In this document: piece by piece, positions 18,007 through 20,144 of the stretch | Layout of the letters: every line of letters starts with the position of its first letter | How positions within the stretch are numbered: position 1 is the first letter of the stretch | NCBI GenBank assembly: GCA_011620695.1 | Contig: WOYT01000028.1 | Span: 1-36,919 of the forward strand | DNA from: Proteiniphilum sp. | GTDB lineage: Bacteria; Bacteroidota; Bacteroidia; Bacteroidales; Dysgonomonadaceae | Length of the DNA: 36,919 nucleotides | Direction of reading: 5' to 3' | Translations under genes and position numbers: made by a program | The notes under the pieces: generated by a model | Database searches by the model: none | The model's input: the letters and a program-made list of their open reading frames with translations, nothing else | What the model was told of the DNA's origin: nothing

Positions 18007-18288
18007 ATGACCAAGGCAGACATTGTGAATGAAATTGCGAAAAACACCGGTGTGGATAAAGCATCGGTATTGGCAACAGTTGAATCTTTTATGGACGTGG
18101 TGAAAGATTCATTGGCGAACAACGAAAATGTATATTTGAGAGGCTTCGGCAGCTTTATTGTGAAGAAAAGAGCGCAGAAGACCGCTCGCAACATCTCCAG
18201 GAACACCACCATCATCATCCCCGAGCACAATATTCCTGCTTTTAAGCCTGCAAAAACATTTGTTGCACAGGTAAAGGAAACCAAATAA
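18007..18288 (+). CDS. HU/IHF family DNA-binding protein
   Basis: MTKADIVNEIAKNTGVDKASVLATVESFMDVVKDSLANNENVYLRGFGSFIVKKRAQKTARNISRNTTIIIPEHNIPAFKPAKTF. Confidence 0.97.
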   Translation: MTKADIVNEIAKNTGVDKASVLATVESFMDVVKDSLANNENVYLRGFGSFIVKKRAQKTARNISRNTTIIIPEHNIPAFKPAKTFVAQVKETK

Positions 18289-18297
18289 TTAATTTTT

Positions 18298-18304
18298 AAA
18301 GGAG
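18298..18304 (+). promoter_or_regulatory. Strong Shine-Dalgarno sequence AAAGGAG, 8 nt before ATG 18313
   Basis: TTTTTAAAGGAGATACGAAG-ATG; other start sites inspected in the window lack such a site. Confidence 0.7.
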
Positions 18305-18312
18305 ATACGAAG

Positions 18313-18405
18313 ATGCCAAGCGGAAAAAAGAGAAAAAGGCATAAGATGTCAGTTCACAAGCGTAAAAAAAGACTCAGAAAAAACAGGCATAAGAAGAAAA
18401 AGTAA
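18313..18405 (+). CDS. 30-aa highly basic AURKAIP1/COX24-domain (bS22-like) putative ribosomal protein, absent from the ORF track
   Basis: MPSGKKRKRHKMSVHKRKKRLRKNRHKKKK; strong SD; compact position between HU and rng; resembles the actinobacterial bS22 / AURKAIP1-COX24 pattern from memory. Confidence 0.8.
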   Translation: MPSGKKRKRHKMSVHKRKKRLRKNRHKKKK

Positions 18406-18435
18406 GCCGAAGATTTTTTTTACACCACTATACAG

Positions 18436-18476
18436 GAACAAACTTAAAAAAAACCACTCGGAAATTAAGTTTGTTC
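18436..18476 (+). repeat. Perfect 12-bp inverted repeat (stem-loop) in the leader of rng
   Basis: GAACAAACTTAA (18436-18447), 17-nt loop, TTAAGTTTGTTC (18465-18476). Confidence 0.7.
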
Positions 18477-18575
18477 TTTGTGTATTTGACAGGGAAGTGG
18501 TTCAGGCGTGAACCTCCTTTCTGTTGTGAAGACAGAAGCCCGAATGATTATGTAAACATTAAAAAAAAAAAAATT

Positions 18576-20144
18576 GTGACAAGCGAACTTGTGGTAGATG
18601 TTCAACCCAAAGAGATTACCATTGCCGTTCTCGAAGACAAGAAGCTGGTAGAATTGCAACAGGAAAGCCTGGAAGGCTCTTTTGCGGTTGGGAATATTTA
18701 CCTGGGCAAAGTAAAAAAACTGATGCCCGCCCTTAACGCTGCATTTGTGAACGTGGGACACAAAAAGGACGCTTTTCTTCACTATTTGGATTTAGGGGTT
18801 GAATTCAACTCTATTCTGGACTTCCAGAAGATGGTTGAAGAGAAAAAAAAGATTCCGCAGCTTCAGAAGATGAAGCTGAAACCCGATATCGATAAGGAAG
18901 GATCCATCTCGGACATCCTGAAAGTGGGACAGGAGATACTGGTTCAGATCGCCAAGGAACCGATCTCAACCAAAGGTCCCCGTCTGACGGCCGAGATCTC
19001 TTTCGCGGGTCGGTTTATGGTGTTGATTCCATTCATCGATCGTGTATCGGTATCGCAGAAAATCAAATCGCGCGAGGAGCGCGCCCGGCTCCGGCAGCTC
19101 ATTCAGAGCATCAAACCTAAGAACTTCGGCGTCATCATCCGAACGAACGCCGAAGGGAAGAAGGTAGCTGACCTCGATGCAGAGCTCAAGGTGCTGGTGA
19201 AACGATGGGAAGACAATATCGGAAAGATCATGAAAGCCAAGGCTCCCTCCCTCATCTATGAGGAAACGGGACGTACCGTGGCACTGTTAAGAGATATTTT
19301 CAGTCCCTCATTCGAACAGATTCACGTCAACGACAGGGACGTGAGTCGGCAGATCGCCGATTATGTGAGCATCATCGCACCGGAACGGAAAAACGTGGTC
19401 AGGGAATATACCGGTGCACTGCCCATCCTGGACAACTTCGGCGTCACCAAACAGATCAAGTCGCTCTTTGGAAAAACTGTTACGTTCAAGAACGGTGCCT
19501 ACCTCATCATTGAGCATACCGAGGCCCTGCATGTGATCGATGTGAACAGCGGTAACCGCAACAAATCGAAGCTGGGGCAGGAGGAGAGTGCCTTTGAGGT
19601 CAACATGGCTGCCGCCGAGGAGATAGCCCGTCAGCTCCGGCTGCGGGATATGGGCGGCATCATCGTGATCGACTTCATCGACATGAGCAAGGGTGAGTAT
19701 CGCAACAAGCTGCTTGCCAGGATGCAGGAGTTGATGGCCGGCGACCGAGCCAGACACAACATTTTACCATTGAGTAAGTTCGGGTTGATGCAGATCACGC
19801 GTCAGCGTGTGCGCCCCGAAATGGAAGTTACCACAAGCGAAGAGTGCCCCACTTGCTTTGGTAAAGGAAAGATCAAATCATCGATACTTTTTACCGACAC
19901 GCTGGAGGGAAAGATCGATTATCTGGTCAACAATCTAAAAGTGAAGAAATTCAGTCTGCACATACACCCTTATGTTGCAGCGTATGTTCAGCAAGGATTG
20001 TTTTCGTTGAAGTTCAAATGGAGAAAAAAATACGACGTAGGATTGAAAGTGATCCCGGATCAGAAGCTGGGTTTCCTGCAGTATGTTTTCTATGACAAAG
20101 ACGGAAATGAAATTGATCTGAAGGAAGAGATTGAAATGAAATAA
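18576..20144 (+). CDS. rng: Ribonuclease E/G family protein (RNase G), probable GTG start at 18576
   Basis: TSELVVDVQPKEITIAVLEDKKLVELQQE; GNIYLGKVKKLMPALNAAFVNVGHKKDAFLHYLDLG; LIIEHTEALHVIDVNSGN; GGIIVIDFIDM; CPTCFGKGK. Confidence 0.95.
   Translation: MTSELVVDVQPKEITIAVLEDKKLVELQQESLEGSFAVGNIYLGKVKKLMPALNAAFVNVGHKKDAFLHYLDLGVEFNSILDFQKMVEEKKKIPQLQKMKLKPDIDKEGSISDILKVGQEILVQIAKEPISTKGPRLTAEISFAGRFMVLIPFIDRVSVSQKIKSREERARLRQLIQSIKPKNFGVIIRTNAEGKKVADLDAELKVLVKRWEDNIGKIMKAKAPSLIYEETGRTVALLRDIFSPSFEQIHVNDRDVSRQIADYVSIIAPERKNVVREYTGALPILDNFGVTKQIKSLFGKTVTFKNGAYLIIEHTEALHVIDVNSGNRNKSKLGQEESAFEVNMAAAEEIARQLRLRDMGGIIVIDFIDMSKGEYRNKLLARMQELMAGDRARHNILPLSKFGLMQITRQRVRPEMEVTTSEECPTCFGKGKIKSSILFTDTLEGKIDYLVNNLKVKKFSLHIHPYVAAYVQQGLFSLKFKWRKKYDVGLKVIPDQKLGFLQYVFYDKDGNEIDLKEEIEMK

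Follow-up and report, generated by a model that had tools for sequence, protein, structure and literature searches.

The window analysed here, 36,919 nucleotides of a Proteiniphilum sp. contig, carries a short open reading frame on the forward strand (18313..18405) that opens with ATG, closes with TAA and encodes the 30 residue protein MPSGKKRKRHKMSVHKRKKRLRKNRHKKKK. Its first upstream cistron is a gene for a HU-family DNA-binding protein (18007..18288, forward strand; PF00216, E 7e-28), the stop codon of which (18286-18288) lies 24 nt before the start of the short frame, and the next gene downstream is rng, of the ribonuclease E/G family (18576..20144, forward strand), for which we infer that the GTG at 18576 (MTSELVVDVQ) is a likelier start than the mechanically assigned TTG at 18471. 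A hairpin on the same strand between the short frame and rng (18429..18484; -18.3 kcal/mol, z -2.94 against shuffles) is a possible 3' end of a transcript carrying HU and the short frame. The Shine-Dalgarno (SD) sequence AAAGGAG (18298..18304, forward strand) is separated from the ATG at 18313 by the 8 nt spacer ATACGAAG. The HU gene has no SD of its own (SD score -0.8) and no convincing intergenic SD was found at the other genes of the window. Frame, sequence, stop codon and an AAAGGAG at 8 nt spacing between HU and rng are exactly as given in a preliminary description of this DNA, which had also rightly called the frame unlisted; this reflects a length cut-off only, and close homologues are deposited in the PDB.

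That the frame is protein-coding is beyond doubt. Pairwise comparison of the 33 genus genomes gave 3681 synonymous against 87 nonsynonymous codon differences, the protein is identical in 30 of the 33 with DNA variation that is nearly all synonymous, and across 247 loci third codon positions carry 1.17 bits of entropy against 0.09 for second positions. A sequence search of the PDB returned full-length matches to 9i5v_10 (E 1.9e-9, 26/30 identities), to 7jil_5, which is chain 5 in the ribosome structure of Flavobacterium johnsoniae (E 5.5e-9, 25/30), and to the Borrelia protein 8fmw_V (E 2.5e-5, 20/28). These homologues are variously named S22 and L38 (depositors' names for 7jil) and 'AURKAIP1/COX24 domain-containing protein', with 8fmw being Borrelia bS22. 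The bS22/AURKAIP1-like identity proposed in the preliminary description is thus borne out, and judged by homology and purifying selection the 30 residue frame encodes bS22, a ribosomal protein known before.

The protein has been described in Bacteroidetes ribosomes as well as in actinobacteria (7jil; PMC10618245, PMC10085706), and further ribosomal forms compared here were 9i5v, Borrelia 8fmw and bS22 of Mycobacterium and Cutibacterium. The F. johnsoniae and Borrelia proteins occupy like pockets, formed in Borrelia by 16S h2, h27, h44 and h45 (PMC10618245), and mS38/AURKAIP1/COX24 and eL41 likewise place a basic helical peptide at the same ribosomal position (PMC10618245, PMC10085706). Unlike the mS38 group, however, the window protein falls below the gathering cut-off of Pfam COX24_C (PF08213; 12.7 against 23 bits, with an alignment spanning residues 3-30), and an NCBIfam search assigned no family. 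F. johnsoniae bS22 is likewise of 30 residues with the same sequence pattern, from which the window protein differs by five substitutions including Val14; the sampled genomes carrying the F. johnsoniae type have no SD before the gene, in contrast to the window. Val14 (codon 18352-18354) occurs in that half of the family to which the SD-bearing genera belong; the sister clade has Thr14, as do most other Bacteroidota.

The gene was detected in 91 of 101 genomes of the family, 276 of 295 of the order and 244 of 248 drawn from the phylum. HU lies upstream in all 71 family loci and in 85 of 89 loci of other Bacteroidales, and an rng-like frame follows in 61 of the 71. More unannotated bS22 genes have been predicted (PMC10618245), and a search by pattern, in which an SD was obligatory, gave bS22-like frames also in Neomarinimicrobiota, Omnitrophota, Treponema (Spirochaetota), Ignavibacteria, Cloacimonadota and other records, pointing to a protein that may be spread far wider and be mostly overlooked. 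In viral contigs the bS22 start pattern had zero matches, and this test thus gave no sign of a phage copy.

In order to assess the SD we scored ungapped pairing to the 16S tail in 247 upstream regions besides that of the window, comparing an SD window with a mock window further upstream. The AGGAG core was present in the SD window of 30 of 33 genus members and 8 of 38 genomes from other genera of the family; beyond the family it occurred in 8/89 other Bacteroidales, 0/29 from other orders of the class and 22/58 from other classes of the phylum, where AGGAG and related motifs together precede bS22 in 33/58. Mock windows held no AGGAG in any group, the reversed motif was absent from the genus upstream regions, and shuffling the 33 genus sequences gave a mean of 0.13 and a maximum of 3. 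Spacing from AGGAG to ATG was 8 nt in 21 and 9 nt in 9 of the 30 genus members, while the gap from the HU stop ranges from 15 to 55 nt in the family. The conservation across orthologues that the preliminary description looked for therefore holds in the genus and neighbouring genera (the same type of upstream sequence also occurs in a Fermentimonas record) and fails at class level, where most Bacteroidia have no SD before this gene. On a tree of rng the family splits into two deep clades and the SD occurs in only one of them, with 7 gains or losses against 19.7-19.9 for shuffled labels; this history fits one gain followed by several losses, although the count of changes would be no proof of it. 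The SD has gone from three genus members (L068, L085, L098) and from sister genera with the gene retained, and is thus not essential for bS22 synthesis. Within these limits the comparative evidence indicates that the SD is real, selected and lineage-restricted, being maintained in this genus and related genera, and we regard the bS22 identity and the selected SD, taken jointly, as very probable.

The preliminary description had taken SDs to be mostly absent from Bacteroidetes mRNAs. This is what we found in 800 kb of a genus-mate (G615), where 569 simple frames with mechanically picked starts showed SDs at chance level: matches of SD strength (about -9.4 kcal/mol) numbered 27 against 38 in mock windows and AGGAG preceded 11 starts against 10 for the reversed control, although a small excess could be hidden by the mechanical picking of starts. 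A raw SD-pattern scan of the window's own genome returned 105 matches against 29 for the reversed control, mostly AAG-GAG codons within genes, and among 30 matches examined few lay at real starts, that of hpf included, so that the scan is given no weight as evidence. Against this background a strong SD precedes rpsR in 17 of 19 family genomes and rplI in all 17 that were readable. SDs on these two genes in some Bacteroidia were reported by McNutt et al., whose survey chose genes by S/L annotation and does not name bS22 or HPF in its main text (PMC9976891); bS22 escaped this survey, and hpf does not encode a ribosomal protein. Like bS22, the published rpsR, rplI and other SD-bearing genes are downstream cistrons of ribosomal operons in the same bacterial order. 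In the window's family the SDs of rpsR and rplI are somewhat stronger than that of bS22. With SDs on bS22, rpsR, rplI and hpf amid chance-level SDs elsewhere, bS22 is a lineage-specific new entry in a small set of SD-bearing Bacteroidota ribosome genes, the protein itself being already known.

The SD of hpf (AAGGAGG) is strong in all 16 readable family genomes (-14.5 to -16.6). In the window's own genome this SD and the end of xerC overlap (G000:C10:3268-3283) within the gene order rpsU-xerC-hpf. Among 19 hpf-bearing genomes of other Bacteroidales 17 have pairing of -10.6 or stronger before hpf, mostly AAGGAGG, and among 8 of other orders of the class such pairing is present in 2 and absent from 6. 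A search of a limited collection of papers gave none linking hpf with an SD, and this strong SD across Bacteroidales looks to be the most useful lead of the analysis.

How such an SD could be read depends on the ribosome. In F. johnsoniae bS21, bS18 and bS6 conceal the anti-SD, ribosomes lacking bS21 read the extended SD of rpsU, mutation of bS21 Y54 exposes SD use, and intact ribosomes do not recognise SDs in vivo or in vitro (PMC9976891). The window genome's bS21 retains Y54, and 12 of the 20 family genomes examined for it have an intact anti-SD (...GGAACACCTCCTTTCT); in the family the 16S end reads GGAACACCTCC and was therefore missed by the pattern GGWTCACCTCCTTT; the 16S gene or its end was not found in the window's own assembly, which is incomplete. 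With Tyr54 kept and the family 16S tail intact, the same hiding of the anti-SD is likely here. We would expect bS22 to be translated as the second cistron of a HU-bS22 message, and as most Bacteroidia ribosomes hide the anti-SD, its SD would offer bS22 and the other SD-bearing ribosome genes a route that needs a free 16S 3' tail, with their translation raised when free-tail ribosomes are common. As an overall account (bS22 as second cistron, a selected SD, a free-tail route) this is the best explanation and a likely one; the dependence of initiation on free-tail ribosomes is a part that we put forward tentatively.

The closest precedent is the autoregulation of F. johnsoniae rpsU (McNutt et al. 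2023, PMC9976891), where a gene for a ribosomal protein likewise carries an SD in a bacterium expected to sequester its anti-SD. There, however, pairing extends over 9-13 bp, while that of the window bS22 covers 7 bp at -11.2 kcal/mol, on a scale of this analysis on which a perfect 13 bp match is -25.2; it thus stops short of the extended SDs of bS21 type (beyond -13 kcal/mol, 9-13 bp), for which the published values come from another program. Nor is bS22 known to belong to the anti-SD pocket. As for rpsU itself, the gene lacks an SD in 17 of the 18 family genomes with a clear start. The exception, G609 (L276, L098), has an SD-like AGAGAGGA before rpsU and a bS22 that is among the three in the genus with no SD; this is a single case, and as it rests on one genome we do not claim mutual exclusion of the two SDs. 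The proposal in the preliminary description that bS22 translation depends on an exposed anti-SD, and that bS22 could therefore be autoregulated or sense the state of ribosome assembly, is weakened by the absence of the SD from most Bacteroidia bS22 genes, by a 7 bp pairing shorter than the extended SD reported to be needed for stimulation by ribosomes that lack bS21 (PMC9976891) and by the SD-free rpsU. A regulatory role is plausible and unproven, and that of an assembly sensor is put no higher than possible because the bS22 pairing is weaker than that of extended SDs responsive to bS21 loss; the lack of conservation in the flanks also speaks against a precise sensor.

The SD could instead be a mild constitutive booster, serving the small share of ribosomes able to pair and carrying no regulatory meaning. 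The moderate pairing, the gain and loss of the SD inside one family and the conservation of the AGGAG core but not of the flanks that could lengthen pairing speak for such a booster, yet intact F. johnsoniae ribosomes ignore SDs (PMC9976891) and a difference between lineages would be needed, and we consider this possible though somewhat doubtful. Rather unlikely is that the SD serves translational coupling, by which ribosomes ending HU would re-initiate on bS22 with the SD holding them near the start, an account that would extend to rpsR (SD in the last rpsF codons), rplI and hpf (SD in the last xerC codons). All four SD-bearing genes in the family are indeed downstream cistrons near an upstream stop, and HU invariably precedes bS22 in the family loci; however the SD keeps a constant distance from the start codon and not from the HU stop, which speaks for a genuine role of the SD rather than for nearness to a stop alone, most Bacteroidales have HU and bS22 about as far apart (median 26 nt) with no SD, and other classes of the phylum mostly have no HU upstream of bS22 and yet carry the SD. 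That AAAGGAG is a chance purine run beside a short Lys/Arg-rich frame, as the A-rich intergenic region might suggest, is refuted within the genus by the shuffled, mock and reversed controls and is exceedingly improbable.

Returning to initiation by free-tail ribosomes, rpsR, rplI and hpf, joined by bS22 in this lineage, could form a small SD regulon in Bacteroidales with a preference for ribosomes whose 16S 3' tail has been freed. We think this rather unlikely; if true, loss of bS21 or bS18 would both restore ribosomal proteins and trigger synthesis of the hibernation factor. As SDs are near chance level in these genomes, the handful of genes retaining one hint at the purpose that SD-reading ribosomes may have. 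Should these genes prove to respond to ribosomes free of bS21, both the repair and the hibernation of ribosomes would be controlled by ribosome heterogeneity.
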